Of a stretch of DNA of 64,000 nt, positions 2,698 through 63,665 are shown in pieces. The stretch covers positions 2,004,985 to 2,068,984 of the forward strand of contig NZ_OY759719.1 of NCBI RefSeq assembly GCF_963662555.1. Reading direction: 5' to 3'. Origin of the DNA: Thiomicrorhabdus sp. (GTDB lineage Bacteria > Pseudomonadota > Gammaproteobacteria > Thiomicrospirales > Thiomicrospiraceae). Below the pieces are notes generated by a model. It ran no database searches. It saw only the letters and a list, made by a program, of their open reading frames with translations, and was not told where the DNA came from. Numbering within the stretch: the first letter of the stretch is position 1; each line of letters opens with the position of its first letter. The translations under genes were made by a program, and so were the position numbers.

Positions 2698-4074
2698 CTA
2701 ACCTCTTCGCCAAGTTGTTCCTTCTGCACTGTCTAACAATTCTATCTTCTGTTCAGCTAATAAATCTCTAATTTCATCTGAGCGAGCAAAGTTTTTTTCT
2801 GCTCTTGCATTTTTTCTTTCTTCAATAAGTTGAGCAATCATCTCATCAGTTAAATCTGAATCATTCGGTTGAGATTTAAAAAAGCTTTCTGCTGAATGTT
2901 CTAATAACCCAATTTGATTTGCTAACTTCACAAGTAAAGCGACCAGGCCTGGTAATTTAGTTTTATTAACTTCTTTGGCCAATTCAAATAACACCGCAAT
3001 GGCTTTAGGTGTATTAAAGTCGTCATTCATAACTGCCATAAATTCTGCTTCGTACTCGGTACCTTCAGTAGGTTGAGTAGCAGAAGCCAAATCTACGTTT
3101 TCGATAGCGGTATATAAACGCCCTACACTCGCTTTTGCACTATTTAAATTTTCTTCTGAATAATTTACAGGGCTACGGTAATGACTAGAAAGTAAGAAAT
3201 AACGAATCACCTCTGGGTGATACATCTTTAACACTTCACGAATCGTAAAAAAGTTATTTAACGACTTAGACATTTTCTCATCATCAATTCTTACAAAACC
3301 GCAATGCATCCAAGTATTGACATAATGTTCACCAGTAGCACATTCAGATTGAGCTATTTCATTTTCATGGTGTGGGAAAGATAAATCCATACCTCCACCA
3401 TGAATATCAAAATGATTACCTAGACATTTGGTGGACATGGCTGAACATTCAATATGCCAACCTGGACGTCCATTACCCCAATCTGAATTCCAACTAGGTT
3501 CATTCTCTTTAGAAGCTTTCCAAAGAACAAAATCTAATGGATCTTGTTTAACTTCATTAATATCAACACGAGCACCAGATTCTAAATCATCGGTGTTTTT
3601 ACCTGACAAACGGCCATAAGAATCAAACGCTTTAACTTTAAAATATACATCGCCATTCTCTGCTGGATACGCAAAACCTTTTTGAATCAATGTACCAATC
3701 ATCTGACGAATATCATCCATGTGCTCTGTGGCCTTAGGTTCCATATCTGGTCTTAAGACGTTCATAGCTGCTTCATCAGCGTGCATTTCAGCAATCATGC
3801 GTGTGGTAAGATCTTGAATAGATTCACCATTTTCTAAAGCACGTTTAATGATTTTGTCGTCAATATCTGTGATATTTCTTACATAATTTACGTCATAGCC
3901 TAAGGCTCTTAGATGACGAACTACCGTATCAAACACCACCATTACACGAGCATGGCCAATGTGACACAAATCATATACTGTTACACCACATACATACATC
4001 CCAACTTTACCTGGGTGAATTGGAGTAAAAAGTTCTTTTTTGCGGCTTTCAGTATTATAAATTTGTAGGCTCAT
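2698..4074 (-). CDS. cysS: Cysteine--tRNA ligase
   Basis: Charges tRNA-Cys with cysteine in the cytoplasm. A class I synthetase of normal length (458 aa). The signature CHIGHAR lies near residue 37 and the KMSKS loop ([12 protein letters not shown]) near residue 266. Zinc-binding cysteines and histidine are visible in [18 protein letters not shown] and [10 protein letters not shown]. The order cysS, ppiB, lpxH matches the classic gammaproteobacterial neighbourhood, with cysS divergent from the cyclophilins across a 292-base promoter region. A copy of the dispersed palindrome (2942-2953) encodes the PGL of KLPGLVAL near residue 376, in the C-terminal helical region. Confidence 0.97.
2942..2953. 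repeat. Dispersed palindrome copy 1 (inside cysS)
   Basis: Exact ACCAGGCCTGGT. Read as LPGLV in CysS. The dyad does not extend further. Confidence 0.9.
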
Positions 4075-4366
4075 AATATTCCTATCGTATGGTCAAAAGC
4101 GAAATAAGTTTATCTACTTATTTACTATAAAATTGTGATTTTTGTGTATTTGTATGTTTTGCAACACTACCCAGCCAAATTAAGATTAAACAGCCCTTAA
4201 AGAACCTTTAAGTGAATCTTGAAATAATGACCTTAAATAATGACATCATCATTAAAATTCAACGTTAAATAGGTAAAAACCGTTCTTAAGGACTTAAGTC
4301 TATTAAAACTAGGTGTTAGAATGCGGCTATTGTATCTTATATACGTCAATAATTTTGGAGTGAATC

Positions 4367-4978
4367 ATGACAAGAAGATTGTTTTTAACCTTAAAAGCGA
4401 GCCTGTTAACCTTATTTGTAAGCACGGCTGTTTTTGCTGAATCTACGGCACCACAAGCTAAAGCAACACCTCAAGAAAACCCTCAAGTATTAATTGAAAC
4501 GACATACGGTACGATTGTATTAGAACTTTATCCTGATAAAGCTCCAAAAACAGTTAAAAACTTTTTACAGTATGTAAATGAAGGTTTTTATGATGACACT
4601 ATTTTTCACCGTGTGATTCCAAACTTTATGGTTCAAGGAGGTGGTTTTACTGAAGACTTTACTAAAAAAATCACTCATGCTCCAATCCCTAATGAGGCCG
4701 ACAATGGTTTACGTAACCGTATTGGAACTGTGGCAATGGCTCGTACAAATGATCCAAATTCGGCTACAGCACAATTTTTTATTAACGTAGCACAAAACAC
4801 CTTTTTAGATTTTCGTGAAAAAACACCTCGTGCTTGGGGATATGCAGTATTTGGTAGAGTGATTAGTGGCATGAAAACCGTAAATCAAATTCGTAACGTT
4901 AAAACTGGCTTTAAAAATGGTATGAAAGATGTACCACTAAAAACGGTAAAAATCATCAAAGCCCGTCAAATCAAGTAG
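4367..4978 (+). CDS. Periplasmic peptidyl-prolyl cis-trans isomerase, cyclophilin type
   Basis: Catalyses proline isomerisation during folding of exported proteins. Residues 1-24 form a signal peptide (basic start, hydrophobic core, AVFAES cleavage region), followed by a short Ala/Gln/Pro-rich linker and a bacterial-type cyclophilin domain with [15 protein letters not shown] and the ATAQFFINV active-site strand. It corresponds to the PpiA role of E. coli. A ribosome binding site, TTGGAG, precedes the ATG. A cytoplasmic paralogue starts 41 bases downstream, so the pair is probably co-transcribed and may come from tandem duplication. Confidence 0.92.
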   Translation: MTRRLFLTLKASLLTLFVSTAVFAESTAPQAKATPQENPQVLIETTYGTIVLELYPDKAPKTVKNFLQYVNEGFYDDTIFHRVIPNFMVQGGGFTEDFTKKITHAPIPNEADNGLRNRIGTVAMARTNDPNSATAQFFINVAQNTFLDFREKTPRAWGYAVFGRVISGMKTVNQIRNVKTGFKNGMKDVPLKTVKIIKARQIK

Positions 4979-5019
4979 AATACGCAGCCAATAAATTAAA
5001 GAATAAAAAAGGATAAAGC

Positions 5020-5523
5020 ATGTCAAAAGTAATTATTGAAACCACTATGGGAAACATCACCGTTGAACTAGACAGTGAAAAGGCTCCTGTTGGAGTAGAA
5101 AACTTCATTCACTATGTGATGGATGGTTTTTATAAAGGCACAATCTTTCACCGCATCATTCCAAACTTTATGGTGCAAGGCGGTGGCATGATTGAAGGCA
5201 TGCAGGAGAAAGACTCAGATGCACCTATTGAGAACGAAGCTGATAACGGACTAAAAAATGAACGCGGAACATTAGCTTATGCTCGTACTATGGATCCACA
5301 TTCAGCAACTACTCAGTTTTTTATTAACCTAAAAGACAATAGCTTTTTAGACCACACAAGTAAAGATACTCAAGGCTGGGGTTATGCCGTGTTTGGTAAA
5401 GTTATTGAGGGAATGGATGTGGTTGATGCAATGGCTGGCGTAGAAACTACTTCTCGACGCGGACATCAAGATGTACCTGTAGAGGACATCACCATCACCA
5501 AAACAACTTTGATTGAAGATTAA
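5020..5523 (+). CDS. ppiB: Cytoplasmic peptidyl-prolyl cis-trans isomerase B
   Basis: A single-domain cyclophilin (167 aa) without a signal peptide. It has [15 protein letters not shown] and [13 protein letters not shown] around the catalytic arginine/phenylalanine/glutamine pocket. It lies 41 bases after the periplasmic paralogue and before lpxH, the same order as ppiB-lpxH in E. coli. AGGAT lies about 8 bases before the ATG. Confidence 0.95.
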
Positions 5524-5623
5524 TTATATCTCTAGTTCAGCTTTTCAAAACTATGCTGTAAACGTTTAGTTTTGCATTGAGTGTTGTATTTAGTGTTTTC
5601 TAAATATTGACTACAACCTTTAT

Positions 5624-5686
5624 AAACCAGGTCTTTTGCTCTTTTATATACATTTTTAGAGCATTTCTACAGGCCTGGTTTTTTTC
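5624..5686 (+). terminator. Two-part terminator-like hairpin after ppiB
   Basis: The outer stem pairs AAACCAGG (5624-5631) with CCTGGTTT (5674-5681) and runs straight into seven T. An inner stem, TGCTCT/AGAGCA (5637-5642 with 5658-5663), sits in the loop. The right arm contains a partial copy of the dispersed palindrome (CAGGCCTGGT), suggesting the element has been adopted as half of a terminator. Confidence 0.55.
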
Positions 5687-5751
5687 ATTTATGAATTTAC
5701 CCCTTAGCTTTCTTTATTGGTAAAATTGGGCTAACTACAAAGAAGAAATAG

Positions 5752-6513: not shown

Positions 6514-6544
6514 ACCGATCTTTAATTAAAAACCCCCTACATTA

Positions 6545-6566
6545 AAAAACCGCATAAATGCGGTTC
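6545..6566 (-). terminator. Terminator of the gene at 6597-6941
   Basis: An ACCGCAT/ATGCGGT hairpin followed on the minus strand by six T (A-run 6544-6549). The opposite side has only a weak T tract, so the minus-strand gene is the likely client, though it also lies just after lpxH. Confidence 0.7.
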
Positions 6567-6596
6567 TAAAATCCTGACGTATTAGTGACTGAGAAG

Positions 6597-6941
6597 TTAA
6601 GAATCGAATTTTAAAAATTTAAACTCTAGTTCACCATTTGGGCTTAGAGTAAACCTTACTTTCTCTTTAACTCTTCCGGCCTCTTGAGTGCCAGAACAAG
6701 TCCAAGCAATGGCCCAATCATAACTATAATCACAACGGTATAGATTGTCTTTAATATGAATTACAGCATCAACACGCATATTACCCGTGTAATTTGCTGC
6801 TTGGCTAATATGACTCATATCCTGCACAAAGTCATCGCTGTAATTTTCAATACATTGATTAAGTGAGTCTTTTATTTTTAGAGTATTCTCTTCATTTTGT
6901 AAACTTACCAGGCCTGCTAAATCTGCAATGATAATTTTCAA
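6597..6941 (-). CDS. Conserved-looking hypothetical protein, 114 aa
   Basis: I do not recognise a family. The protein starts MKIIIADLAG, has no signal peptide or membrane segment, and mixes charged residues with aromatic clusters (YRCDYSYDWAIAWTC near residues 68-82). Two cysteines sit in that cluster. The ending, with LSPNGELEFKFLKF, suggests beta strands. It is a single-gene unit between convergent lpxH and the symporter gene, with its own terminator. The degenerate palindrome at 6907-6916 encodes part of LAGLV at residues 8-12. Confidence 0.65.
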   Translation of the reverse strand: MKIIIADLAGLVSLQNEENTLKIKDSLNQCIENYSDDFVQDMSHISQAANYTGNMRVDAVIHIKDNLYRCDYSYDWAIAWTCSGTQEAGRVKEKVRFTLSPNGELEFKFLKFDS

Positions 6942-7043
6942 TGGGTTATCCTTTTACATTCTCAATTTTAATCACTTTATGTGGCCTGTATAGCAAACCT
7001 TTTTAGCTTTTTAAAGTTATGACAAAACCTAAAAACTACAACA

Positions 7044-8306: not shown

Positions 8307-8345
8307 ATTAAATCCTTAAAGACTTTTTAGGTTTATCAATACAAA

Positions 8346-8381: not shown

Positions 8382-8408
8382 ATTTTTAAATAGATTAGCT
8401 GTTGTATG

Positions 8409-12886: not shown

Positions 12887-12904
12887 TTTACCAGGCCTGG
12901 TAAA
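12887..12904. repeat. Dispersed palindrome copy 2 (intergenic)
   Basis: Exact core ACCAGGCCTGGT with the dyad extended to 18 bp (TTT/AAA arms). It lies between the cold-shock gene and the convergent gene at 12968. Confidence 0.95.
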
Positions 12905-14528: not shown

Positions 14529-15983
14529 TTATTCGTCTAAGCCCAACGCTTGGGTTTTTCTGGTTAAGGTATTTCTCCCCCAACCTAATAGCACCGCCGC
14601 TTTTTGGCGGTGGTTAGCAGATGCCTTTAAAGCAACTTCAATGAGGACTTTTTCAAAGATCTGTTCTGCTGCGGTATGCAAACCTTCTCGGCCACTTTTA
14701 ATAAATTCTTCTGACCATTCTCTTAGAGGTTTTTCCCAGTTATCCCCTGAAGCCTCTTCACAAATATCACTGCTTGGATTTTGCAACTCTAACGGCAAAT
14801 CGTCCATATATACAGTTTTATCTGGTGCCATAATGGTTAACCAGGTACACAAGCTTCTAAGCTGCCTAACATTACCTGGCCATGGCAGTGATGATAAGAA
14901 CTTCACAACATCTTTACTGAGAACTTTTTCTTCTAAGCCTAATCCACGAGCTTCTTTTTCTAGGTAAAAACGCAGTAAAAGTGGAACATCTTCAGATCGT
15001 TCACGTAAAGCAGGGACTTTAATACGAATGATATTTAAGCGATAGAGTAAATCTTCACGAAATTTACCTTCACGAACTAAGAGCTCCATATTTTGGTGTG
15101 TTGCGGCCACAATTCTTACATTGGTTTTAATGGCACTTTTACCACCAACTCTATAAAAACTGCCATCATTTAATACACGTAATAAGCGTGTTTGCAAATC
15201 AACGGGCATATCCCCTATTTCATCCAAAAACAGAGTTCCGCCATCAGCTTGTTCAAAACGACCTACACGCTGTGAATGTGCACCGGTAAACGAGCCTTTT
15301 TCATGACCAAACAATTCAGACTCTAATAATTCTCTTGGAATGGCTGCGGTGTTAAGAGCCACAAATGGCCCCTCAGATCGTGGGCTTAATTCATGTAATG
15401 CTTGGGCAACCAACTCTTTACCAGTCCCCGTCTCACCATTAATCAATACAGTCACATCTAATTGAGAAACTCGTCCAAGAACCCTAAAAACCTCTTGCAT
15501 TGCAGGTGCTGCACCAATGATATTAAGAGGTTGTTTCTCAGCTTTTGGGCTACGTTTTGCGCGTTTAACACCCCCTGATTGAAAACGCTTTACTGCGCGG
15601 TCAACCAAAACCGAAACCTCATCAATATCGAATGGCTTAGGAAGGTATTCAAAAGCACGGCTTTGAAAGGATTTTACTGCCGTATCTAAATCTGCATGAG
15701 CGGTCATAATAATGACAGGAATTTGCTTATCTAGTTCATGCAAAGCTTCCATAAAGGTTAAGCCATCCATATCTGGCATTCTTACATCACTAATCACCGC
15801 TGATGGTGGAAATGACTCATACGCTTTTAACGCGGTTAAAGGCGAATCAAATATCTTAACCAAATAAGGCCTATCTTCTAGTGCCGCTTCCAAGACCCAA
15901 CGAATCGATGCATCATCATCCACAACCCAAACAATTGGCTCAATTGTTTCATTGTTTAAATTAGTATTGCTTTCTGTAGTCAT
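14529..15983 (-). CDS. ntrC: Nitrogen regulation response regulator NtrC
   Basis: Sigma-54 activator phosphorylated by NtrB under nitrogen limitation. Receiver domain (residues 10-130) has DDDASIRW and the phospho-acceptor in [12 protein letters not shown]. The AAA+ domain (about 150-390) has Walker A GETGTGKE and the sigma-54 contact loop [10 protein letters not shown] (GAFTGA in most relatives), then DEIGDMP. The end is a Fis-type helix-turn-helix ([16 protein letters not shown]). The start overlaps the ntrB stop by 4 bases, so the two are translationally coupled. Confidence 0.95.
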
Positions 15984-17047
15984 GCATCATTTTCCTTTTG
16001 ATTCAAGGGCAGGTACACTGTAAACACAGTATCTCCCGGTTCACTCTCTGCAACAATCAGCCCATCATGCTGACGTAATACATTTTGTGCAACAGGCAAA
16101 CCTAAGCCTGTTCCTTCTTTTTTACTGGTTACCATTGGATAAAAAATTGAGTCAAATACGCTTGCAGGAATACCTTCTCCCTCATCTTTTATACTGATAC
16201 TAGCCACCAACGGATAGGTTTTTGCTCCAAGTGTAAATTTGTGCTCTACACGCGTTTTAATAGTTAAAAACCCGCCAGTATCTTTCATCGCCTGAATACC
16301 ATTCTGAATTAGATTAAGCAGTGCTTGCACCATTGCTTCAAAATCCATATAAATGTCTGGAATACTTGGATCATAATCTAATTTAATATAGACATTTTCA
16401 GGCTTTTCACCCTCTACAATCTGCAAAACATATCGAATTAATTCATGCACGTTATGCTCAGCTTTTTCACTATTTTGTTCAGGGCCCAACATACGATTTA
16501 CCAAATTTTTTAAACGCAGTACTTCTTTTGCAATCACCTCTAAAAAAGAAGATTCTTTGTCTTCAGGGCCAAAACGTTTTTGCAACAACTGGGTGGCGCC
16601 ATAAATACCAGCTAGAGGATTTTTAACTTCATGAGCTAAGGTTTTGATAAGTAAGTTACCTGCTTCATACTGGTGCCACCGCTCGTCTTCTTCAACGATT
16701 CTGTGATGCCTTTCTGTATTGTAAATTTCAAATAACCAGCCTTGCTGACCACATAGTTCATACGGAGTAATAATGGCACTCACTCGGATTTTTTCTAAAC
16801 CCTGTACATTGAGCGTATATTCATGAATAGTGAGTTTTTTATCAATCGAATCTGCCAAGTTATCTACCAGGCCTGGTAAAACATTCTGCCAACTCTCTCC
16901 AATCATGCGATTAGGACTTACTTGAAAGATTTCACCTGCAGCAACATTCATAAATTGAATTCGTTCGTTACTATCTAACCAAAGTACTGCCGTGGTTAAC
17001 CCTTCAAGCATTTCATTAAATAATTTTTCTGATTGCATTTTAATCAC
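15980..17047 (-). CDS. ntrB: Nitrogen regulation sensor histidine kinase NtrB
   Basis: Cytoplasmic kinase and phosphatase of NtrC, controlled by PII. A PAS domain (residues 5-115) is followed by the H-box LAHEVKNPLAGIYGATQLL with the phospho-histidine near residue 138. The N-box LIQNGIQAM and the G-boxes DEGEGIP and GTGLGLP follow. No membrane segments, as expected for NtrB. It overlaps both neighbours by 4 bases. The dispersed palindrome at 16866-16877 encodes LPGLV near residue 58 in the PAS domain. Confidence 0.94.
   Translation of the reverse strand: MIKMQSEKLFNEMLEGLTTAVLWLDSNERIQFMNVAAGEIFQVSPNRMIGESWQNVLPGLVDNLADSIDKKLTIHEYTLNVQGLEKIRVSAIITPYELCGQQGWLFEIYNTERHHRIVEEDERWHQYEAGNLLIKTLAHEVKNPLAGIYGATQLLQKRFGPEDKESSFLEVIAKEVLRLKNLVNRMLGPEQNSEKAEHNVHELIRYVLQIVEGEKPENVYIKLDYDPSIPDIYMDFEAMVQALLNLIQNGIQAMKDTGGFLTIKTRVEHKFTLGAKTYPLVASISIKDEGEGIPASVFDSIFYPMVTSKKEGTGLGLPVAQNVLRQHDGLIVAESEPGDTVFTVYLPLNQKENDA
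16865..16878. repeat. Dispersed palindrome copy 3 (inside ntrB)
   Basis: Exact ACCAGGCCTGGT at 16866-16877, dyad 14 bp. Read as LPGLV. Confidence 0.9.
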
Positions 17048-19151: not shown

Positions 19152-19163
19152 ACCAGGCCTGGT
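19152..19163. repeat. Dispersed palindrome copy 4 (intergenic)
   Basis: Exact ACCAGGCCTGGT, six bases after the stop of the Rossmann-protein gene. A fragment (GCAGGCCTT) occurs again 20 bases downstream at 19182-19190. Confidence 0.9.
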
Positions 19164-24159: not shown

Positions 24160-24189
24160 AACAAATTTACCAGGCCTGGTAAATTTGTT
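24160..24189. repeat. Dispersed palindrome copy 5, 30-bp perfect dyad upstream of tolB
   Basis: Core ACCAGGCCTGGT at 24169-24180, flanked by perfectly complementary arms (AACAAATTT on the left), making the longest dyad of this family in the window. It lies 41 bases before the tolB start in the tolA-tolB gap, where it could act as an operator, RNA hairpin or attenuator. The rest of the gap (24190-24416) shows no other recognised feature. Confidence 0.95.
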
Positions 24190-26743: not shown

Positions 26744-27751
26744 TTATTCTGCAATTTGTTCAAAGTTCAGATGTTTATACGCATGTGATGTCGCCATTCG
26801 GCCTCTTGGCGTTCTCACTAAAAAACCTTGTTGAACCAAGAATGGCTCAATTACATCTTCAATAGTACCACGCTCTTCACCCAAAGCTGTTGCCATACTA
26901 TCTATACCAACCGGCCCGCCGTCAAACTTATGAATTAAGGTTTCTAAAAAACGTCTATCCATTTTATCTAAACCAAGTGTATCTACTTCTAATAAATTCA
27001 GAGCAGAATCGGCTATAGCTTGAGTAATAATGCCATCGCCTTTTACTTGTGCAAAATCTCGTACACGTCTTAACAGTCTATTGGCAATACGAGGTGTACC
27101 ACGAGAACGGCGAGCAACTTCCTGAGCACCTTCTAGTTCTGAATGCATACCTAAGATATGCGAAGAACGTGTCACAATTTGAGTGAGTTCTTCATGGGTA
27201 TAAAATTCTAAACGTTGTACCAATCCAAATCGATCACGCAGTGGCGAAGTTAATAAGCCAGCTCTTGTAGTCGCTCCCACTAAGGTAAATGGCGGAAGAT
27301 CGATTTTTACACTTTGTGCCGCTGGGCCATCGCCAATCACAATGTCTATTTGAAAGTCTTCCATTGCTGGATATAACACTTCTTCAACAATCGGGCTTAG
27401 GCGGTGAATCTCATCCACAAACAACACATCATGCGGCTCTAAACGCGTTAGTATCGCCGCTAAATCGCCCGGTTTTTCAATAACTGGCCCTGAGGTTTGA
27501 CGCAACGTCACGCCCATTTCTTGAGCAATAATATTTGATAAAGTCGTTTTTCCCAGGCCTGGTGGTCCATAAAGTAATACATGGTCTAGAGCTTCACCAC
27601 GCATCTTGGCGGCATCCATAGAAAGCTGTAACTGTTCACGAACCGATTGCTGACCAATATATTCATTAATCTGTTGCGGTCTTACAGAAGGAGCTGTGTA
27701 GATGTCATCAGCAACCTCTTGACTGCCAATTATGCGATCTGTTTCAATCAT
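26744..27751 (-). CDS. ruvB: Holliday junction branch migration helicase RuvB
   Basis: AAA+ motor of the RuvABC resolvasome. Walker [12 protein letters not shown] (about residue 62) and Walker [10 protein letters not shown] are intact, as is the sensor [18 protein letters not shown]. The C-terminal winged helix ends near RTPRGRMAT. 335 aa. It follows ruvA with no spacer. The 10-base core of the dispersed palindrome coincides with the Walker A codons here. Confidence 0.98.
27553..27562. repeat. Dispersed palindrome copy 6 (inside ruvB Walker A)
   Basis: Exact CCAGGCCTGG; the outer A is replaced by C. Read as PGLG within the invariant GPPGLGKT, so this copy could be chance codon use rather than a member of the family. 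Confidence 0.6.
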
Positions 27752-28934: not shown

Positions 28935-28952
28935 TTTACCAGGCCTGGTAAA
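28935..28952. repeat. Dispersed palindrome copy 7 (upstream of ruvC)
   Basis: Exact core with an 18-bp dyad (TTT/AAA arms), 20 bases before the ruvC start codon. It would fall in the ruvC leader RNA or promoter. Confidence 0.95.
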
Positions 28953-29049: not shown

Positions 29050-30138
29050 TTAGTTTGCTGATTTTACCAGGCCTGCCTGTCTTGAGAAATCTAGCATTCT
29101 TTGTAATGAAATCAAGGCTTTTTGACGAACTTCTTCATCCACCAATACTTCACCAGTATGATTTTTTAAACAGTCACGCAAATTTTGCAAACCGTTCATC
29201 GCCATCCAAGGACAATGTGCACAGCTATTACAAGAGTCTTTTTTACTGCCTGTAGGTGCAATATAGAGCTTTTTATTGGGAGCTAATTGCTGCATCTTAT
29301 AAAAGATACCGTAATCAGTCGCCACAATAAATTCATCATCTGGAAGATCAACCACCGCATTTAATAATACTTTGGTTGAACCAACAATGTCAGCCAAATT
29401 GACTACCTCAGAAGGAGATTCTGGATGCACTAAAACTTTGGCTTTTGGGTGTTGTTGTTTTAGGCTTTCTAGCTCAAAGGTTTTGAACTCGTCGTGCACA
29501 ATACAATGCCCCTGCCAACGAATCATCTCAACACCGGTTTGCTGTTCAATCCAGTTTCCAAGATGACGATCTGGAGCCCAAATAATTTTTTTACCTTGCT
29601 CTTTTAGATGTGTCACGATTTGTAACGCATTACCTGAGGTAACAACCCAATCTGCGATCGCTTTGACCTCAGCACTAGTATTGGCATACACCACAACGGT
29701 GTAATCCGGATGTTGTGCACAAAACTCGGCAAATTCATCCGCTGGACAACCTACATCTAAAGAACAAGTGGCTTCTAAGTCTGGCATCAAGACGGTTTTT
29801 TCTGGGCTTAACATTTTAGCCGTTTCACCCATAAAACGCACACCACAAACCACCAGCATATCGGCATCAGACTGAGCACCAAAGTTAGCCATCTCTAAAG
29901 AATCGGCAACGGTACCGCCCGTTTCTTCTGCTAAAGCTTGTAGCTCATCATCGACATAATAATGGGCGACCAACTGAGCATTATTAGCTTTTAATAACTG
30001 CTTAATTTCAGTCTTTAATGCTTCTTTATCTGCATTATTCAGCCAAGGTTGAGTCGGAGCAGATGATGCCAATTGTTGAATACGCGATTCTAACTGAACC
30101 GGTACATCCGTTGACTTAGTCGATATCACTTGTGACAT
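29050..30138 (-). CDS. nadA: Quinolinate synthase
   Basis: 4Fe-4S enzyme that condenses iminoaspartate with dihydroxyacetone phosphate to quinolinate for NAD synthesis. The three cluster cysteines are in [27 protein letters not shown] and the C-terminal [26 protein letters not shown] binds substrate. 362 aa. It lies 47 bases after aspS and probably shares its transcript. A decayed palindrome (29066-29075) encodes AGLV at the extreme C-terminus. Confidence 0.96.
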
Positions 30139-30185: not shown

Positions 30186-31967
30186 TTACGCTTCGCCACG
30201 CATTGGTTTTCTAAATCTAAGTGCTAAATCTTCAAGTTGAGCATTATCTACCAGGCCTGGTGCTTCTGTTAATAGACACGCTGCTGATTGAGTTTTAGGG
30301 AAAGCAATAACATCACGAATGGAATCGATATCACCTAAAATCATAACCAAACGGTCTAAACCAAATGCCATACCAGCGTGTGGAGGACAACCATATTTAA
30401 GTGCTGTTAATAAGAAGCCAAACTTATCTTGAGCTTCTTCATCAGAAATACCTAATAATTTAAGCACCGCTGCTTGCATGTTAGTGTCATGAATACGCAC
30501 AGAACCACCACCCACTTCTAGGCCGTTAATGACTAAATCATACGCTTTAGACAACATTTGCTCAGGAGCATGATGGTTTAAGATTTCTTCTGTGGTTGCT
30601 TTTGGCTGAGTGAACGGATGGTGAATGGCCGTCATACGAGCATTTTCTTCATCCTCTTCAAACATTGGGAAATCCACAATCCATACAGGCTTGAACTGAC
30701 CGTTTAGCATATTTAAATCTTCACCGATCTTGACACGCAACGCACCTAAAGCATCGTTTACAATTTTGGCTTTATCTGCACCAAAGAATACGATATCGCC
30801 ATCTTGAGCACCAACACGTTCCATAATCTCCATAACTTGATCAGGGAAGAATTTAACGATTGGTGATTGCAGACCATCAATACCCGCAGATAAATCATTT
30901 ACTTTGATGTACGCTAAACCTTTAGCACCGTAGATGCTTACAAACTTAGTGTAAGCATCGATATCTTTACGGCTCATTGCACCCGCACCAGGAACTTTAA
31001 GTGCAACAACACGTCCTTTGGGATCTTTAGCAGGACCTGCAAATACTTTGAACTCGATATCTTGCAATAGATCAGCGACATCAACCAACTGCATATCAAT
31101 ACGCAAATCAGGGCGGTCAATACCGTACTTCTCAATCGCTTCCGCATAAGTCATACGTGGAAAGTCATAACCAAAGTCGTGACCAATTGCTTCTTTAAAG
31201 ATGGTCTTAGTTAAACCTTCCATTACATCCATGACCGCATCTTCTTCCATAAAAGAAGTCTCAATATCTAACTGAGTAAATTCAGGCTGACGGTCAGCAC
31301 GTAAATCTTCATCACGGAAACAACGGGTAATTTGATAATAACGGTCAAAACCAGACATCATCAGTAACTGCTTAAACAGCTGTGGTGACTGAGGAAGAGC
31401 AAAAAACTTATTCTGATGAGTACGACTTGGCACTAGATAATCACGTGCACCTTCTGGTGTTGATTTAGTCAGAATCGGCGTTTCAATATCCATGAAATTA
31501 TTATCATCAAGATAACGACGCATTGAACGAGTCACTTTATAACGCAACATCATGGTTTGCTGCATTTCTTCACGACGTAAATCAATATATCGATATTTTA
31601 AACGTGTCTCTTCACCAACATTTTTGTCGTCCAACTGAAATGGAATTGGCTCAGCCATACTCAACACATTCAGTTCTGTTGCAACAATCTCAATTTTACC
31701 CGTTGTCATATTTGGGTTAATTGTACCTTCTGTTCTGCCGATAACCTGACCTGTAATTTGCAATACACACTCTGAACGTAAACGTTCAGCCTTGGCAAAA
31801 ATATCTGCTGTATCTGGGTTTACAACCACTTGCACCAAACCTTCACGGTCACGTAAATCGATAAAGATAACCCCACCGTGGTCACGGCGTCGATGAACCC
31901 AACCTGCAACGGTTACGGTTTGGTCAATAAATGTTTCTGTAACTTGCCCACAATACTGCGTACGCAT
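30186..31967 (-). CDS. aspS: Aspartate--tRNA ligase
   Basis: Class II synthetase, 593 aa. An N-terminal OB fold ([21 protein letters not shown]) binds the anticodon. Motif 2 [18 protein letters not shown] and motif 3 [13 protein letters not shown] form the active site, with the bacterial GAD insert between. Whether it is discriminating or non-discriminating (also charging tRNA-Asn) depends on gatCAB elsewhere. The palindrome at 30250-30261 encodes PGLV near residue 570. Confidence 0.97.
30250..30261. repeat. Dispersed palindrome copy 8 (inside aspS)
   Basis: Exact ACCAGGCCTGGT. Read as APGLV 20 codons before the aspS stop, a region of low constraint. Confidence 0.9.
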
Positions 31968-32153: not shown

Positions 32154-32846
32154 CTATTTCTCACTAATGGGTGGTGTAACCTTTTCAATCCCTTGAGTTC
32201 CTTGAAGACTATCAGGCCCTTCTACTTTAGTGTTTTTATTTTTTTTCATACCTGGTACAACCACACCACCTGAAATCACCATTTTTAAAGCATCATCAAC
32301 AGTCATTTCTAACTCTACAATTTCATGACGATTCGCCATAATAAAAAAGCCAGAGGTTGGATTTGGTGTGGTTGGCACAAATAGATTAACCACATCATTC
32401 ATTCTGGTCTTTTTCTGAGCTTCTGCTTGATGTGTACTCGTTTGAAAAGCAAGTGTCCACAACCCTTTTCTTGGATATTCAATGAGATAAGCTTTTTCAA
32501 AAGTTTGATCGCCAGAACCAAAAACCGCCTCTGCAATTTGCTTTACTGCATTATAGATTGAACGCACCAACGGAATTCTTGATAAAAAGGCTTCCCACAA
32601 CTTTACAATTTTACTACCTAGTAAATTGGCAACAAAAATCCCCGTTATCAAAATAAGCAAAAAGGATAAAACAACACCCAGGCCTGGAATATTAAACCCC
32701 AATAAGGTTTCTGGCCTGTAATCATGAGGTATTAGCAACAATGTTTGGTCAAACAAATCAACTAAAAACTTAATGACTGCAATAGTCACACCCAATGGCA
32801 ACCAAACTAACAACCCTGCAATCAAATAACGCTTAAAAAAAGACAC
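32154..32846 (-). CDS. DUF502 family membrane protein
   Basis: Two membrane helices (residues 8-28 and 53-77) are followed by a soluble domain with the family's GSKIVKLWEAFLSRIPLVRSIYNAVKQI. Its other signatures are VVNLFVPTTPNPTSGFFIM and VVVPG. The C-terminal 25 residues are polar and disordered. The function is unknown; the gene is often found just upstream of aspS, as here (186-base gap). The palindrome core at 32678-32687 is read as IPGLG in helix 2. Confidence 0.85.
   Translation of the reverse strand: MSFFKRYLIAGLLVWLPLGVTIAVIKFLVDLFDQTLLLIPHDYRPETLLGFNIPGLGVVLSFLLILITGIFVANLLGSKIVKLWEAFLSRIPLVRSIYNAVKQIAEAVFGSGDQTFEKAYLIEYPRKGLWTLAFQTSTHQAEAQKKTRMNDVVNLFVPTTPNPTSGFFIMANRHEIVELEMTVDDALKMVISGGVVVPGMKKNKNTKVEGPDSLQGTQGIEKVTPPISEK
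32678..32687. repeat. Dispersed palindrome copy 9 (inside DUF502 gene)
   Basis: Exact CCAGGCCTGG, with both outer bases changed (C and A). Read as PGLG. Confidence 0.7.
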
Positions 32847-34494: not shown

Positions 34495-34516
34495 AATTTA
34501 CCAGGCCTGGTAAATT
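34495..34516. repeat. Dispersed palindrome copy 10 (intergenic)
   Basis: Exact core with a 22-bp dyad (AATTT/AAATT arms), 120 bases upstream of the DUF3579 start. The arm sequence is identical to the copy at 47014-47035, so the two share a 22-bp identical palindrome 12.5 kb apart. Confidence 0.95.
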
Positions 34517-35857: not shown

Positions 35858-36898
35858 TTAAAAATGGAGATAACCTTTTGATTCACCCAAATTAAATAAC
35901 TTATCATTAAGTGTTAATTTTATATTTGCCACATCTTTATCCGCATCAGATTTCATGATTTCAGATTCCACCATTTGACCAATCTTTGAAATAGAGATTC
36001 CAACCTCCTCAGCCAGTTTGCTAGCATAAACAAACTGTTCAGATGAAAGCGTGAAACAAAGTTGATAATCATCACCGCCAGTTAAAATCGTTTTCCAATC
36101 ATCTGTTTTTTCAATATACAAACGGGCAGATTCTGATAAAGGTAAATTGTCCAGATCCACTCTAGCAGCAAGTAATGGCTCACCAGTTTTAATAAGTTTA
36201 TTAGACTCCTCCAAAATATGCCCTAAGTCTGCAAATAATCCATCAGAAATATCGATAGCACTGTTAGAAAACCCTAACATTTTTTCACCAAACTCCAATT
36301 GTGGTTTGGGACGATTTAATGCATTTAATAGATAGTGTTGCTGCTCTAATTTCATATCATGTTTTACCAGGCCTGGTAACTTATCTAATGCCACTAACAA
36401 CCCCAAAGCACCATCACCAATGGTATTAGTAACACAAATAACATCACCCGCTTTAGCACCTGACCTTTTTACAGCTTTACCATGTTCAACAAAACCTTGG
36501 GCTGTGACTGTAATCGTCAAAGGTCCTTTAGTGGTATCTCCACCAATTAACGGTATTTTATATAAAGTAGAAATATCAGCTAAACCTCTAGCAAAATCAG
36601 TTAACCAGGCCTGGTCATTGCTAGGAGTGGTTAATGCTAAAGAGTAAAATCCCGGCTTAGCCCCCATAGCGGCTAAATCACTTAAATTGACCGCCACGGC
36701 TTTCCAGGCAATATCATAAGCAGTGGTATCTTCAGGAAAGTGAACACCACAAACCAAGGTATCGGTAACCACAACCAACTGTTGGTTCTCTGGAACACTC
36801 AATACAGCTCCGTCATCACCAATACCTATTTCATCCTCTGAAAGTCCTTTTGATAAAGGTTGAAACAACGTTTTGATTAATTCAAATTCGCTCGCCAT
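35858..36898 (-). CDS. thiL: Thiamine-monophosphate kinase
   Basis: Phosphorylates thiamine monophosphate to the active diphosphate. Family motifs: GIGDDGAVL near residue 26, GVHFPEDTTAYDIAWKAVAVNLSDLAAMGAKP as two shorter blocks, IGGDTTKGPLT, and SNSAIDISDGLFADLGHI. 346 aa, normal. It contains two palindrome copies 238 bases apart in different reading frames (DQAWL near residue 94 and LPGLV near residue 175). It is separated from nusB by a terminator. Confidence 0.95.
   Translation of the reverse strand: MASEFELIKTLFQPLSKGLSEDEIGIGDDGAVLSVPENQQLVVVTDTLVCGVHFPEDTTAYDIAWKAVAVNLSDLAAMGAKPGFYSLALTTPSNDQAWLTDFARGLADISTLYKIPLIGGDTTKGPLTITVTAQGFVEHGKAVKRSGAKAGDVICVTNTIGDGALGLLVALDKLPGLVKHDMKLEQQHYLLNALNRPKPQLEFGEKMLGFSNSAIDISDGLFADLGHILEESNKLIKTGEPLLAARVDLDNLPLSESARLYIEKTDDWKTILTGGDDYQLCFTLSSEQFVYASKLAEEVGISISKIGQMVESEIMKSDADKDVANIKLTLNDKLFNLGESKGYLHF
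36364..36379. repeat. Dispersed palindrome copy 11 (inside thiL)
   Basis: Exact core with a 16-bp dyad. Read as KLPGLVK. Confidence 0.92.
36604..36615. repeat. Dispersed palindrome copy 12 (inside thiL)
   Basis: Exact 12-mer. Read in a different frame from copy 11, as DQAWL. Confidence 0.92.
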
Positions 36899-39819: not shown

Positions 39820-40974
39820 TTAAATCGCTTCCTTTGGCACCAAAATTAATCGAATATCTTCGCCAAAACGATCCATCGATTGAATTTTGAAGTTCATTTT
39901 TTGATCCATTGATTCAATACCTGGCAAAACAAACATTGGTTTAGCGGTATTCCCCATTAAAGACGGAGCAATGAAACTATGCAATTCATTTACCAGGCCA
40001 GATTGCATAAATGCACCTGCAACAATCGCTCCTGATTCAACCATGACATCATTAACATCTTCTACTTCAGCTAGATAACGCAAAATAGACTCTATATCTA
40101 AGCGATCATCTTGAGCTGACACAGCAACAAGCTCCACACCATGATTGTAAAACATTTCAACCAGCTCTGGGCTTCGGTCTGTAGTTTCTTTGGAAGTCAT
40201 TAAAATAGTACGACCAGGCAAAGAGAGCATTTTAGCATCTGTTGGCATACTTAAATTTGGATCAAGCACGATTCTAATTGGATGACAATTATCTTGTGAT
40301 AAATTTAACTCCGTTAACTCTTGATCGGTTAGCCGAACCGTTAAACTTGGATTATCAGCTAACACAGTACCAATACCAGTAATTAAAGCCCCGCTTTGTG
40401 CACGCATTTTATGAACTTCTTTACGCGACTCCTCGCCAGTAATCCAGTGGCTCTCACCATTATTCATTGCTGTGCGTCCATCTAAACTACTAGCCATTTT
40501 TAACCTAACAAACGGTAACTGTTTTTCCATTTTTCTAATAAATCCTAAATTAATCGCTTTGGCTTCTTCTTCTAAAACACCGACCAAAACATCAATACCA
40601 GCATCTTCAATTCTTTTAATCCCCTGACCAGATACTAGAGGATTTGGGTCTCTCATTGCTACAACGACTCTAGCAACTTTGGCTTCTATTAGGCCATCTG
40701 CACAAGGAGGCGTTCTACCAAAGTGCGAACAAGGTTCTAAGGTTACGTACGCAGTTGCACCTTGTGCTTTATTACCCGCACTAGCTAAAGCCACTCGCTC
40801 AGCATGAGGTTGCCCAGCTTTCTGATGCCACCCCTCACCTACAATTATGCCATCTTTAACTAATACACAACCAACCGCAGGATTAGGTTTTGTTGAATAC
40901 AACCCTTTTTTAGCTAGCTCAAGGGCTTTTTGCATGTAAAAAATATCAGATTCAAGCAGTTTAGAGTGAGACAA
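39820..40974 (-). CDS. ribD: Bifunctional riboflavin biosynthesis deaminase/reductase RibD
   Basis: Second and third steps of the pathway. Deaminase domain (1-145) with zinc ligands in PHAERVALA and EPCSHFGRTPPCADG; reductase domain (about 150-384) with RLKMASSLDGRTAMNNGESHWI and ESGAIVAGAFMQSGLV. 384 aa. It is the first rib gene of the operon, 43 bases after nrdR. No FMN riboswitch was visible upstream. Confidence 0.96.
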   Translation of the reverse strand: MSHSKLLESDIFYMQKALELAKKGLYSTKPNPAVGCVLVKDGIIVGEGWHQKAGQPHAERVALASAGNKAQGATAYVTLEPCSHFGRTPPCADGLIEAKVARVVVAMRDPNPLVSGQGIKRIEDAGIDVLVGVLEEEAKAINLGFIRKMEKQLPFVRLKMASSLDGRTAMNNGESHWITGEESRKEVHKMRAQSGALITGIGTVLADNPSLTVRLTDQELTELNLSQDNCHPIRIVLDPNLSMPTDAKMLSLPGRTILMTSKETTDRSPELVEMFYNHGVELVAVSAQDDRLDIESILRYLAEVEDVNDVMVESGAIVAGAFMQSGLVNELHSFIAPSLMGNTAKPMFVLPGIESMDQKMNFKIQSMDRFGEDIRLILVPKEAI

Positions 40975-41589: not shown

Positions 41590-41617
41590 AAAAAACCACC
41601 AGGCCTGGTGGTTTTTT
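41590..41617 (-). terminator. glyA terminator built from dispersed palindrome copy 13
   Basis: A 28-bp perfect palindrome: core ACCAGGCCTGGT (41598-41609) with CC/GG and six A/T on each side. It has the GC-rich stem and T-run of an intrinsic terminator in both directions but no separate loop, so any RNA hairpin must open the central four bases. It lies 66 bases after the glyA stop. Confidence 0.8.
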
Positions 41618-47010: not shown

Positions 47011-47013
47011 TAC

Positions 47014-47035
47014 AATTTACCAGGCCTGGTAAATT
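47014..47035. repeat. Dispersed palindrome copy 14 (intergenic)
   Basis: Exact core with a 22-bp dyad, identical over all 22 bases to the copy at 34495-34516. It starts 4 bases after the stop of the secreted-protein gene. Confidence 0.95.
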
Positions 47036-59704: not shown

Positions 59705-59738
59705 AGCTTAATTAAACTTTATTAATCATCTTTAAATT

Positions 59739-61016
59739 TTATTCACTTTTAGGCACGTTCTTAGCAAGCTTTGGTAAAGCTTCTCTGCCGTTCAAAGCTT
59801 GACTCATCAACCAATTCTTAACTAATGTCATTTTATTAGCTAGCGGCAATAATGGCTTTCTAATTACTGCTTTTAAAGAGGCATTTTGCTTAAACAGCCA
59901 GTCAAAAGCTTCCATAGACCGTTGCACAATCGCATTATCACCACGACGCCATCTCTCATACTTTCTTAATACAGCAAAACTTCCCCAATTTTTGGAGGCC
60001 GCTCTCGCATTTAAGACTACCTCGACCAAAGCTGCAGCATCTAATAAGCCAAGATTTACACCTTGTCCAGCCTGTGGATTAATAGTATGAGCAGCATCAC
60101 CTACTAATGCCAAGTTTGCCTTAACATAGTGCTCAGCGTGTCTTCTCACTAAAGGAAAAGCCCCTCTTACAGATACTTCAATCACTTGTCCTAACTTATA
60201 CTCAGAAACCTGAGAAATCTCTCTGGCAAAATCGTCGTCAGATAAACTTAATGCCCACTGCATTTTGTCTATAGGTAGATACCAAGCAATTGAGCTGACA
60301 TTATTATCCATTGATAAAAACGCAAACGGACCATCTTTAGTGTATCTTTGCCAGCAAGTATCTTGATGCGAAAGCTCGGTTTTTACACAACCCACAACAG
60401 CACATTGCTCATAATCATGAGTATCTAAACCAATATTAGCTAATTGACGAACACTAGAAGACGCTCCGTCTGCACCAACCAGCAAATGAGTTTGCAAGAC
60501 CCCAATGTTTTTTATGCCTAACCAGGCCTGGTAATTTTTAAACTCTAAGCTTTCAAGTTCGGCATCAAATAAAACTTCTATGCCTTCACATTTTTCAACC
60601 TGCTCCCACAAACTCGCTTGAATAATGTCGTTTTCTACCGTGTAACCTAGATTAGGTTCGTTCATTTCTTGAGCAGAAAAATGCACTTCTCCTGGTGTAA
60701 TTTCATCCCAAACGTGCATAGCGGTAAATGGATGATAACGTCGATTTTCGATACCTTGCCATGCACCAAGATTTTTTAAAATTTTTTCGGATGCTCGGGT
60801 TAAAGCACTCACTCGAATTTGGTAAGGAGAATCCTTATCCCATTGCAAATCTATGGGCTTTTTTTCAAGCAATAACACTTGCATGCCTTGCTGCCCTAAA
60901 CCTAAAGCCGCTGCGGCACCTACCATGCCACCACCGACAATAATGGCATCCCAAACTTTTTCAGTTAAACCAGCGGCTCTATTCAATGAATTGGCTTCTT
61001 CTGTGACATGGCTCAT
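59739..61016 (-). CDS. FAD-dependent ubiquinone biosynthesis hydroxylase (UbiI/VisC/UbiF type)
   Basis: Flavin monooxygenase that adds a ring hydroxyl in ubiquinone synthesis. FAD motifs: IIVGGGMVGAAAALGLGQQG near residue 27, LLVGADGASSSVRQ near 180, and LVGDAAHTINPQAGQGVNLGLLD near 315. It overlaps the ubiH-like gene by 4 bases. Position suggests UbiI (C5), but a UbiF role (C6) cannot be excluded. The palindrome at 60521-60532 is read as YQAWLG near residue 163. Confidence 0.88.
   Translation of the reverse strand: MSHVTEEANSLNRAAGLTEKVWDAIIVGGGMVGAAAALGLGQQGMQVLLLEKKPIDLQWDKDSPYQIRVSALTRASEKILKNLGAWQGIENRRYHPFTAMHVWDEITPGEVHFSAQEMNEPNLGYTVENDIIQASLWEQVEKCEGIEVLFDAELESLEFKNYQAWLGIKNIGVLQTHLLVGADGASSSVRQLANIGLDTHDYEQCAVVGCVKTELSHQDTCWQRYTKDGPFAFLSMDNNVSSIAWYLPIDKMQWALSLSDDDFAREISQVSEYKLGQVIEVSVRGAFPLVRRHAEHYVKANLALVGDAAHTINPQAGQGVNLGLLDAAALVEVVLNARAASKNWGSFAVLRKYERWRRGDNAIVQRSMEAFDWLFKQNASLKAVIRKPLLPLANKMTLVKNWLMSQALNGREALPKLAKNVPKSE
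60521..60532. repeat. Dispersed palindrome copy 15 (inside hydroxylase gene)
   Basis: Exact ACCAGGCCTGGT. Read in the QAW frame. Confidence 0.92.
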
Positions 61017-62272: not shown

Positions 62273-62348
62273 AAATGTATTTGCTCAAATTTATTTTCAA
62301 TTACCAAAAGAGATAAAGTGAAATTAGCAGAACCTTAGTCCTGACACG

Positions 62349-63665
62349 TTACTCTTGACAAGATGCCATCCATTGCTCAATCTCGTTAACGGTTCTTGGT
62401 AAGCCTGTTGTTAAAACCTCATTACCCGTTTGTGTAACAAGCACATCATCTTCAATACGAATCCCAATATTGTGCCACTTACTATCAACATTTTCGTGTT
62501 CTGCTGAAATATACAGGCCAGGTTCAACTGTCACCACCATACCTGCTTCAAAATCTCGCCATTGCTGGTTAACTTTATATTCGCCCACATCATGTACATC
62601 CATACCTAACCAGTGGCCAGTACCATGCATAAAAAAGTCTTTATAAGCTTCTGATTCAATCAGCTCATCCACATCACCTTGCAAAATATTTAATTTTACC
62701 AGGCCTGTTGTCAACACCTTAACCGATGCCTGATGGGCTTGATCATAACTGCCCCCAGGTTTAATGGCTTGAATGGCTGCTTGCTGAGCATCTAAAACCA
62801 GCTCATAAAGCTCTGCTTGAGGTTTTGAAAACTTACCACTGGCAGGAAAAGTTGTGGTGATATCTCCAGCGTAACTTTGCCATTCGGCACCTGCATCAAC
62901 CAATAACAATGATTGTTTATTAATTTTTGAACGGTTCTCTGTGTAATGCAAAATACAGGCATTTTCAGCAGAAGCTACAATTGAGCTAAATGCAACCCGC
63001 GGTGACCCTTGCTTTACAAAAGCAGACTCAAGCTCAGCTTGAACTTGATATTCATAATCACTATTTAAAACCGCTTTCATCGCTGCTAAATGACCACTTA
63101 CCGAGATTTGAGCCGCTTTACGCATATACTCAATTTCTTGCTCAGATTTAAACACTCGCATTTCATGAAGAATTTTATCTAAATCACAAATATTAGATGG
63201 AGCAGAAATACCTTTACGAACCTTTTGCTTTAGCAAACCAATCCAATCATTTAAAGATTCATTCCAATCAGCAAGATGAGAAAAACTGATATAAATTGAC
63301 TCTATGTTTTCAAGAAGTTCAATTGCTTTTTCATCAAGCTCGGTAATTGACCAGGCCTGGTCAATTAATAAAGTTTTACTTGCCGCATCAACACCTAAAC
63401 GTCTTCCTTGCCAGGTTTCTTGCTCTGGATCTTTTGGACGCAAAAAAAGCACACTTTGCGTGTTATCTTGCTTAATTAAGAATAGAACGGAGTCAGGTTC
63501 AGTAAAACCGGTTAAATAAATAAAATCACTATCCGCTCTAAAAGGAAATTCTACATCGCGATTTCGAATTTGCTCCTCACCAGAAGCAATAATCGCAACA
63601 CTGTTGTTAGGCATTTTTTCTAGTAAAGATTGGCGGTTTTTTTGATAAAAAAGGGGATTATCCAT
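62349..63665 (-). CDS. pepP: Xaa-Pro aminopeptidase
   Basis: Removes N-terminal residues preceding proline. The creatinase-like N-terminal domain (about 1-170) is followed by a pita-bread metalloprotease with the di-manganese ligands in LLVDAGAEWQSYAGDITTTFP, GTGHWLGMDVHDVG, VTVEPGLYIS and GIRIEDDVLV. 438 aa, as in E. coli (441). Palindrome copies lie at 63344 (24 bp, exact) and 62698 (decayed). Confidence 0.96.
   Translation of the reverse strand: MDNPLFYQKNRQSLLEKMPNNSVAIIASGEEQIRNRDVEFPFRADSDFIYLTGFTEPDSVLFLIKQDNTQSVLFLRPKDPEQETWQGRRLGVDAASKTLLIDQAWSITELDEKAIELLENIESIYISFSHLADWNESLNDWIGLLKQKVRKGISAPSNICDLDKILHEMRVFKSEQEIEYMRKAAQISVSGHLAAMKAVLNSDYEYQVQAELESAFVKQGSPRVAFSSIVASAENACILHYTENRSKINKQSLLLVDAGAEWQSYAGDITTTFPASGKFSKPQAELYELVLDAQQAAIQAIKPGGSYDQAHQASVKVLTTGLVKLNILQGDVDELIESEAYKDFFMHGTGHWLGMDVHDVGEYKVNQQWRDFEAGMVVTVEPGLYISAEHENVDSKWHNIGIRIEDDVLVTQTGNEVLTTGLPRTVNEIEQWMASCQE
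63344..63367. repeat. Dispersed palindrome copy 16, 24-bp dyad inside pepP
   Basis: Exact core with complementary arms TAATTG/CAATTA, the longest dyad found inside a gene. Read as IDQAWSI near residue 101, in the non-catalytic N-terminal domain. Confidence 0.95.

Follow-up and report, generated by a model that had tools for sequence, protein, structure and literature searches.

The 64-kb stretch of Thiomicrorhabdus DNA analysed here, referred to as the window, contains the same short palindrome inside and between genes of unrelated function. This raises the question of what the repeated word represents, and whether it belongs to this locus, to the host genome or to a larger group of bacteria.

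Abundance of the palindrome in the window and in the host genome

A sequence-only reading of the window had listed 16 exact copies of CCAGGCCTGG, 14 of them extended to the full ACCAGGCCTGGT. Both counts were reproduced and every copy was found at its position (each listed number marks where the 12-mer or 10-mer begins), with 27553 and 32678 as the two shorter exceptions. Across 100 dinucleotide shuffles the mean was 0.02 copies and no shuffle contained more than 1, and the GC content, guessed at about 40%, was computed as 36-40%. Ten decayed copies had also been named, of which nine contain at most two mismatches to the 12-mer (those quoted at 5671 and 20012 lie at 5668 and 20011 in the recount), while the one at 50057 contains three. 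One-mismatch copies are ACCAGGCCTGCT at 6907..6918 and ACCAGGCCTGTT at 62698..62709. Copies with two mismatches are present at 29066..29077, where the AGGCCTG part is also found in G032, G033 and G028, and at 39992..40003, where these three genomes contain CCAGGCCTG at the same place.

The palindrome also occurs beyond the window, with 2-9 copies in every one of 20 sampled stretches of 20 kb from the rest of the genome. For a 464-kb sample, 115 copies of CCAGGCCTGG were counted, where a third-order Markov model predicts 0.38. Neither of the two outcomes named beforehand as refuting the observation, a genome-wide count near the Markov expectation or confinement to the window, was obtained. The complete 2.70-Mb genome of this gammaproteobacterium contains 590 exact copies of CCAGGCCTGG and none of the reversed pattern. 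Spacing of the sites showed no significant regularity (CV 0.85 versus 0.92 simulated, P 0.17). A text search of the available papers found no mention of the 12-mer, and among the matches listed for the 10-mer the papers were unrelated by title.

Location, conservation and origin of individual sites

Several sites lie within genes, all of those named here on the minus strand. The ACCAGGCCTGGT copy at 2942..2953 is located in cysS (2698-4074; TIGR00435) and reads PGLV, and the one at 16866..16877 lies within a histidine-kinase gene (15980-17047), the protein reading PGLV in the host (G000), G032, G026, G033 and G028, PGLL in G021, PGLI in G048, and PN or PD in G024, G031, G027 and G051. At 27553..27563 in ruvB (26744-27751), CCAGGCCTGGT encodes the P-loop GPPGLGKT, and relatives without the motif differ by synonymous codons. 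The 10-mer of the aspS site (30250..30261; gene 30186-31967) is shared with G032, G026, G033, G028 and G021 and missing from five others compared, and for CCAGGCCTGG at 32678..32687 in a DUF502 gene (32154-32846), G032 alone retains the site among ten genomes compared. One AIRS-family gene (35858-36898) contains two copies, both retained in G032 and G033: the first, at 36366..36377, lies in a poorly conserved region (aligned at 36367) with gaps in G031 and G027, and the second, at 36604..36615, reads DQAW. Further genic copies are located in an FAD-binding oxidoreductase gene (60521..60532; gene 59739-61016) and in a pepP-like gene (63350..63361; gene 62349-63665), the latter being part of a 24-bp dyad.

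The other copies, mostly intergenic, are all of the ACCAGGCCTGGT type. The one at 12890..12901, in the spacer of convergent open reading frames, is absent from G032, and for the one at 19152..19163, located 6 bp past a stop codon, G032 retains the 10-mer. The copy at 24169..24180 forms the centre of a perfect 30-bp dyad. Among the remaining ones, 28938..28949 is present in G032, G026 and G033 and missing in G028; 34500..34511, upstream of a DAHP synthase gene, is retained in G032, G033 and G028; 41598..41609, within the terminator-like hairpin AAAAACCACCAGGCCTGGTGGTTTTT, is found in G000, G032, G026, G033 and G028; and 47019..47030 is retained in G032 and G026.

Taken over the window, 11 of the 13 sites that could be aligned (of 16) are retained at orthologous places in G032, compared to 13% of coding and 22% of intergenic control 10-mers, and for sites inside genes the exact 10-mer is conserved in all six alignable cases. 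Coding sites arise by substitution, often synonymous, and were free of gaps in five of six sites aligned with relatives. A neutral spreading motif, one of the roles considered earlier, is unlikely in its simple sense, because orthologous positions keep the sites while the sequence around them has diverged; a drive that continually re-makes sites could still be at work.

Flanking sequences and dyad symmetry

For the host, pooled half-sites revealed AAA at positions 7-9 followed by TTT at 10-12, coding sites included, and the consensus is a 24-bp sequence with AAATTT flanks. Several of the spellings found in related genomes also have an AT tract outside the core, with the TTT peak at position 10 in G027 and in G048+G024, and at 9-11 in G006+G015; none was seen in the pooled genomes of genus g6. 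Perfect dyads reach 30 bp in the window, at 24170, and 36 bp in the sampled rest of the genome. Uninterrupted symmetry extends further than in permuted flanks.

Distribution and dialects in the Thiomicrospirales

The dense core CMGGCCKG was identified in 35 of 62 genomes of the order Thiomicrospirales, a carrier being defined by our own cut-offs of at least 250 cores and at least four times the reversed control. The 27 non-carriers include three with a ratio above 4, namely G002 (57 versus 11), G016 (12 versus 2) and G046 (7 versus 0). Carriers at least 95% complete contain 432-1275 cores per genome (median 973). Outside the family, none of 365 sampled members of the class had more than 46 copies, so that among the genomes sampled a high copy number is nearly confined to one family, and the motif is absent from several clades within the order. 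G027 carries it, for example, whereas the other seven sampled members of its clade are non-carriers.

The spelling differs in a clade-specific manner around a conserved inner core: ACCAGGCCTGGT, TACCGGCCGGTA, AGCAGGCCTGCT and ANCAGGCCTGNT were identified, together with the polar AAACTCAACAGGCCGGGT. These dialects were discovered without a preset core and then counted with the core pattern derived from them, a procedure that overlooks any spelling not matching CMGGCCKG. The dialects cluster by clade on a tree of AspS DNA from 30 genomes, with 6 state changes compared to a shuffled mean of 14.5 and none of 200 shuffles as low; G034 and G037 stand outside the dialect assignment. For G049, the site sample comprises 17 distinct sites of 18 counted, since two stretches overlap. 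Respelling was seen even inside one genus. G052, G053 and G060, which may be near relatives, contain a mix of TGGT and TGCT forms.

Palindromy is not universal among the spellings, since 51 of 60 core sites in G023 read CAGGCCGG/CCGGCCTG, with A-rich tracts on one side. The two orientations of this motif occur 21 and 13 times, without a steady strand bias in these 34 sites. Two tail-to-tail inverted pairs among them could form terminator hairpins.

Proposed function and alternative explanations

The best explanation of these data, to which we give a probability of slightly under one half, is that the host's palindrome may be one local form of a self-tag that is spread over whole genomes, spelled differently from clade to clade, and works like the uptake signal sequences (USS) of the Pasteurellaceae and the DNA uptake sequences (DUS) of the Neisseriaceae. 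This reading draws support from the copy number, the dialects and their clustering by clade, the AT tracts, the polar G023 motif, the substitutional origin and retention of sites, their bias to gene ends, ComEC in nearly all carriers at least 90% complete, and the failure of the two methyltransferase families searched to track the motif. A sequence-specific protein would prefer DNA with a CMGGCCKG centre and AT-tract flanks, and this putative protein would most likely be a receptor of the competence machinery. Tagged DNA would be taken up and recombined preferentially, and tags would therefore build up by point substitution where coding constraint permits. They would be retained at orthologous places, often near gene ends, some perhaps doubling as terminators, and the spelling would change upon a shift in binding specificity. 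The protein binding, its membership in the competence machinery and biased uptake as the force are steps that we infer from sequence.

A possible but distinctly less probable role is the binding of an intracellular protein along the whole chromosome, for nucleoid organization, segregation or repair. This would be a dimer reading ACCAGG/CCTGGT, with minor-groove contacts to the AT tracts and a specificity drifting between clades. The dyad symmetry and the 24-bp consensus would fit a dimer, and the chromosome-wide spread of 2-9 copies per 20 kb, the conservation of orthologous sites and the carriers without PilT described below are consistent with it. However, an obligate symmetric dimer is ill-suited to the polar G023 dialect, and for a housekeeping function both the 27 non-carriers among 62 related genomes and the respelling inside one genus would be odd.

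It is improbable that the sites serve mainly to terminate transcription, or as RNA hairpins of another kind, and owe their spread to selection at gene ends. The placement of the sites is suggestive of such a role, since 60 of the 115 sites in the host sample lie outside predicted genes, which cover 84% of the bases, and sites concentrate near gene ends, convergent spacers being richest (1.7 per kb) and divergent ones poorest (0.3 per kb). Hairpins with T runs are present at 41598 and in the G023 inverted pairs. However, the other 55 sites lie within predicted genes, where the exact 10-mer is conserved as well, and dyad matching at flank positions 2-14 did not differ significantly from permutation (P 0.10 for spacers, 0.11 for genes), although symmetry runs exceed those of permuted flanks.

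We consider equally doubtful an element of the HIP1 type, in which a solitary methyltransferase and methyl-directed repair create and maintain a palindrome. HIP1 of cyanobacteria is likewise an overrepresented palindrome, with alternate HIPs in some species according to the available part of PMC4390886, and the alternate spellings in related species recall these. The likeness to HIP1 noted in the sequence-only reading thus holds for the anatomy (dispersed, genic and intergenic, with species-dependent alternates), but the clade dialects, one of them polar and non-palindromic, and the AT-tract flanks set the Thiomicrospirales motif apart from HIP1 and point to uptake signals instead. HIPs are generally accompanied by matching methyltransferases. 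A methylation target of this kind is not supported here: PF00145 (m5C methyltransferase) had no match in the host and none in genus g6, whose nine genomes are all motif carriers, and PF01555 none in the host, G021, G026 and others, so that a methylation drive was rejected for the two families searched, neither of which tracks the motif. The available text of PMC4390886 assigns a GGCC methylase to Pfam MethyltransfD12. Outside the motif, GGCC is not specially avoided in the host, with an observed/expected ratio of 0.71 after masking versus 0.27 for GCGC. The accession of MethyltransfD12 is presumably PF02086.

Remnants or products of mobile elements of the REP or MITE type, which are also short dispersed palindromes, are a very improbable source, because the gap-free substitutions at five of six aligned coding sites leave spread by insertion unsupported and little sequence is shared beyond about +-12, apart from a mild AT excess at 15-17.

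Comparison to known systems

Chi and KOPS sites are species-specific, overrepresented and chromosome-wide, and they are polar with a strand bias. The Thiomicrospirales motif, in contrast, is mostly palindromic, and its polar dialect lacks a steady bias.

The proposed self-tag resembles the USS of the Pasteurellaceae in copy number, from some hundreds to more than a thousand in a genome, inside and outside genes, and in its subclade-specific types; 'hundreds or thousands' of copies are given for USS and DUS in the available part of PMC12616744. An AT-rich segment, with As first and then Ts, lies just 3' of the USS core, as described in the accessible text of PMC1626085. This likeness is one of sequence anatomy; the USS core is unrelated to CMGGCCKG, and many genomes related to the host lack the motif. 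The USS is described as non-palindromic in the available part of PMC12616744, as are uptake sequences in general (PMC1939737), whereas most Thiomicrospirales dialects are palindromic and therefore have AT tracts on both sides. Inverted repeats of USS and DUS act as terminators, as far as the available part of PMC12616744 describes them, and the two G023 pairs would be a counterpart if they terminate transcription. The gene-end bias in the host is stronger than described for uptake sequences, most of which show no bias to positions downstream of genes (PMC1939737). For the DUS of the Neisseriaceae, dialects which follow phylogeny and retain a small inner core were described in the available part of PMC3630211, a text in which the word palindrome is absent. 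The DUS receptor, ComP, is known, while a Thiomicrospirales counterpart is putative.

Somewhat more tentatively than the self-tag reading itself, the motif may represent a third, independently evolved bacterial system of self-DNA recognition, with a signal that is palindromic in most species sampled, has become polar in at least one, changed its spelling across the genome at least twice in a single genus, G027 being one case, and is gone from whole clades. If so, one genus of these free-living sulfur oxidisers would combine genomes with the motif, genomes without it and several spellings. The emergence, change and loss of uptake specificity could then be followed as a natural series, open to comparison and experiment. 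If the role were intracellular, it would equally need to be explained what protein binds at roughly a thousand places in each genome.

Competence and pilus genes

Most findings on competence and pilus genes weigh against the uptake reading, and ComEC in nearly all carriers weighs for it. No report of transformation in this bacterial group was found among the literature matches listed. ComEC was identified in 29 of the 30 carriers at least 90% complete, G037 being the exception. Of the 21 near-complete non-carriers, 19 have it as well, and competence genes therefore fail to track the motif. Pilin and secretin counts were rejected as a tracking trait, as they revealed no consistent difference between carriers and non-carriers, and so was FimT, since the FimT/GspH profile (PF12019) matched almost nothing (3 of 62 genomes, all of them non-carriers). 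The PilQ cut-off was reached by none of the 62 genomes, and G049 (86% complete) had no pilin, secretin or PilT-family matches.

TIGR01420 (PilT family) scored above cut-off in all 21 near-complete non-carriers and in 25 of the 30 near-complete carriers, the five without it being G010, G015, G052, G053 and G060. Two of these, G052 and G060 (1190 and 1056 cores), have two pilin-type matches each and weak secretin matches only. To our knowledge, H. influenzae likewise lacks PilT. As a post hoc observation within the TGGT-type dialect, given no weight as proof, exact 10-mers make up a smaller share of the cores in carriers without PilT than in those with it, both for genomes at least 90% complete (5 versus 18, P 0.004) and for all genomes (8 versus 19, P 0.001), with P values that ignore kinship.

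Abundance and Placement in the Host Chromosome

The dispersed palindrome described in the sequence-only reading was confirmed. All 16 copies of the 10-mer CCAGGCCTGG were identified in the window, 14 of which are the full 12-mer ACCAGGCCTGGT, compared to 0.02 in shuffled sequences. The host chromosome, a single contig of 2,696,250 bases in which the window spans 2004985-2068984, contains 590 copies of CCAGGCCTGG and 0 of the reversed pattern. For a 464-kb sample of this chromosome, a third-order Markov model predicted 0.38 copies and 115 were counted; among the 10- and 12-base palindromes of the sample, no other approached this excess. Confinement to the window, named in that reading as a possible refutation, was not observed, with 2-9 copies in every one of 20 sampled 20-kb stretches elsewhere. 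In the window and stretches L031-L050 of the host, GCGC was strongly under-represented (observed/expected 0.27), as were CCGG (0.52), GATC (0.56) and GGGCCC (0.34), which may be the trace of past or present restriction systems.

Genes were called with our own simple, unpublished finder, covering 84% of the 464-kb sample. Of the 115 sites, 55 fall within genes and 1 at an edge; spacers hold the rest, with 35 between tandem, 19 between convergent and 5 between divergent genes. The density per kb is 1.7 in convergent, 0.8 in tandem and 0.3 in divergent spacers and 0.14 in coding sequence (convergent versus divergent sites, P 0.0001). Coding sites mostly read PGLV or PGLG, xQAW or TRPG. At window positions 41590-41617, a terminator-like hairpin carrying the motif within its stem is common to five species of the host clade.

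Distribution and Dialects

The motif is short, conserved, order-wide, patchily present and forms dialects, that is, clade-specific spellings. Scans of the order (Thiomicrospirales) and of the family gave the identical 62 genomes, so that the order is represented by one family. Per genome, CCAGGCCTGG is present 0 to 856 times, with sharp differences within genera. Genomes lacking this spelling may use another: G027 uses TACCGGCCGGTA, with 44 copies of ACCGGCCGGT in 120 kb, G042 uses AGCAGGCCTGCT, and G048 and G024 share ANCAGGCCTGNT. By kinship grouping, G047 and G048 are congeneric with the host; the window's PurL shares 84% identity with its counterpart in Thiomicrorhabdus sp. ZW0627, and the host is probably a Thiomicrorhabdus. 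The core CMGGCCKG was chosen from the observed spellings and counted in all 62 genomes, a count which any spelling outside this pattern would escape. With a cut-off of our own (at least 250 cores and at least 4x the reversed control), 35 genomes were classed as carriers and 27 as non-carriers; carriers at least 95% complete contain 432-1275 cores (median 973). In 10 of the 27 non-carriers, sampled over 7-100 kb each, no alternative dispersed k-mer of similar strength was found, the leading k-mers being weak or local repeats. Among 370 genomes of the class (5 in the family), CCAGGCCTGG never exceeds 46 copies outside the family, a count covering that spelling alone.

Other repeats were seen within 60 kb each: AGACCTAGCC 28 times in G007 (L059-L061) and ATCTAGGTAG 19 times in G005 (L169-L171), both among dozens of copies of unrelated 8- and 10-mers, which suggest long genes or arrays with internal repeats, and in G025 (L055-L057) the 5-mer ACAAG repeated in tandem, with ACAAGACAAG 22 times. 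In G021, the smaller contig or replicon C2 (L167; 96.8 kb) contains 2 exact motifs in a 20-kb stretch, where two chromosomal stretches of that length contain 9 and 6; C2 is perhaps a plasmid with fewer tags.

A tree was built from the DNA of one gene, aspS, for 30 of the 60 genomes with an AspS match. With three states (the host's TGGT-type, other dialects, non-carriers), 6 changes were required, compared to a mean of 14.5 after shuffling (0/200 as low). The host clade (G000, the host, with G032, G026, G033, G028 and the less pure G049) is TGGT-type, and a second clade (G042, G024, G048, G047, G037, G023; support 92/96) contains other dialects only; the labels of G034 and G037 are putative, derived from counts (exact low, core high). 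Non-carriers occupy three places on the tree of 30 genomes. G027 (CCGGCCGG) adjoins G029, a non-carrier; of the eight members of their clade, all but G027 are non-carriers.

Shape of the Motif

Pooled half-sites of the host show T at +6, AAA at 7-9 and TTT at 10-12, in spacers and genes alike. The TTT peak has the same position in G027 and in G048 with G024, lies at 9-11 in G006 with G015, and is absent beside the core in the pooled genomes of genus g6. Runs of perfect symmetry average 3.38 in spacers and 1.98 in genes, versus 2.80 and 1.38 in permuted flanks (0/2000 permutations as high in either case). Over positions 2-14 of the flanks, however, matching does not significantly exceed that of permuted flanks (P 0.10 in spacers, 0.11 in genes), so that most dyads are explained by consensus flanks.

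G023 is different in kind. Here, CAGGCCGG or its complement accounts for 51/60 cores, and the alignment of 34 ACAGGCCGG sites gives a polar AAACTCAACAGGCCGGGT, flanked on one side by A-rich tracts near -7 and -20. In six stretches, 21 sites are in plus and 13 in minus orientation, with no steady bias; two tail-to-tail pairs could form predicted terminator hairpins.

Origin and Conservation of Sites

The host-clade genome G032 is about 81% identical to the host in DNA. Of the 16 window sites, 13 could be aligned to it, and the 10-mer is retained at 11: 6/6 coding sites (controls 13%) and 5/7 spacer sites (controls 22%). At aligned window sites, the 10-mer is kept in 7/9 for G033 and 5/9 each for G026 and G028 within the host clade, and at 2/4 coding sites in the more distant G021 (controls 3%). 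It is kept in 0/4 for each of G048, G024 and G031, 0/5 for G027 and 0/3 for G051. Protein-level comparison covered six coding sites in all: at those in the RuvB P-loop, AspS and DUF502, the changes are mostly synonymous, the histidine-kinase site reads PG in place of PN/PD, and both sites in the AIRS gene fall in variable stretches. These alignments and protein comparisons indicate that sites arise by substitution and stay while their flanks change; insertion was rejected as their origin, since the coding sites compared differ from relatives by substitution, five of the six without a gap. Of the aligned G048 cores, 5/8 are also cores in G024 and 0/5 in the host, so that a different dialect goes with different sites.

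Candidate Function

Preferential uptake of tagged DNA would produce the pattern of the motif, and from sequence we put the chance that it works like a DNA-uptake signal at about even. This reading is favored by the density, the dialects around the core, the A-then-T tract, the polar dialect, the inverted pairs, and ComEC in 29/30 near-complete carriers (19/21 near-complete non-carriers). PMC1626085 describes an A-then-T tract beside the core of the USS of Pasteurellaceae, which the motif resembles. For USS and the DUS of Neisseriaceae, PMC12616744 reports inverted pairs acting as terminators, to which the G023 pairs, as predicted hairpins, are similar. However, according to PMC1939737 uptake sequences are non-palindromic and mostly without bias toward sites downstream of genes, whereas the motif is palindromic and biased to such sites, which was counted as a difference.

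As evidence against uptake, none of the competence genes examined (ComEC, PilT family, pilin, secretin) tracks the presence of the motif. The PilT family, representing pilus retraction, is absent from 5/30 near-complete carriers and 0/21 near-complete non-carriers, and partly on this ground the motif is not assigned to the USS/DUS kind; H. influenzae is likewise not known to have PilT. In G049 (86% complete), 0 matches for N_methyl pilin, the PilQ family and the PilT family were found and ComEC is present, and G052 and G060 have few pilin and secretin matches.

The pattern also fits an alternative to uptake, in which selection maintains sites that an intracellular protein would bind. A model after HIP1, the dispersed cyanobacterial palindrome, in which the palindrome depends on a methylase, fares less well, since PF00145 and PF01555, the two methylase families examined, are not general partners of the motif.

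In g3, the four non-carriers (G007, G008, G013, G014) have 2-3 N_methyl pilin matches and the seven carriers 7-10. Counts of only 2-3 are also seen in g6 (G052, G056, G057, G060), there without loss of the motif.
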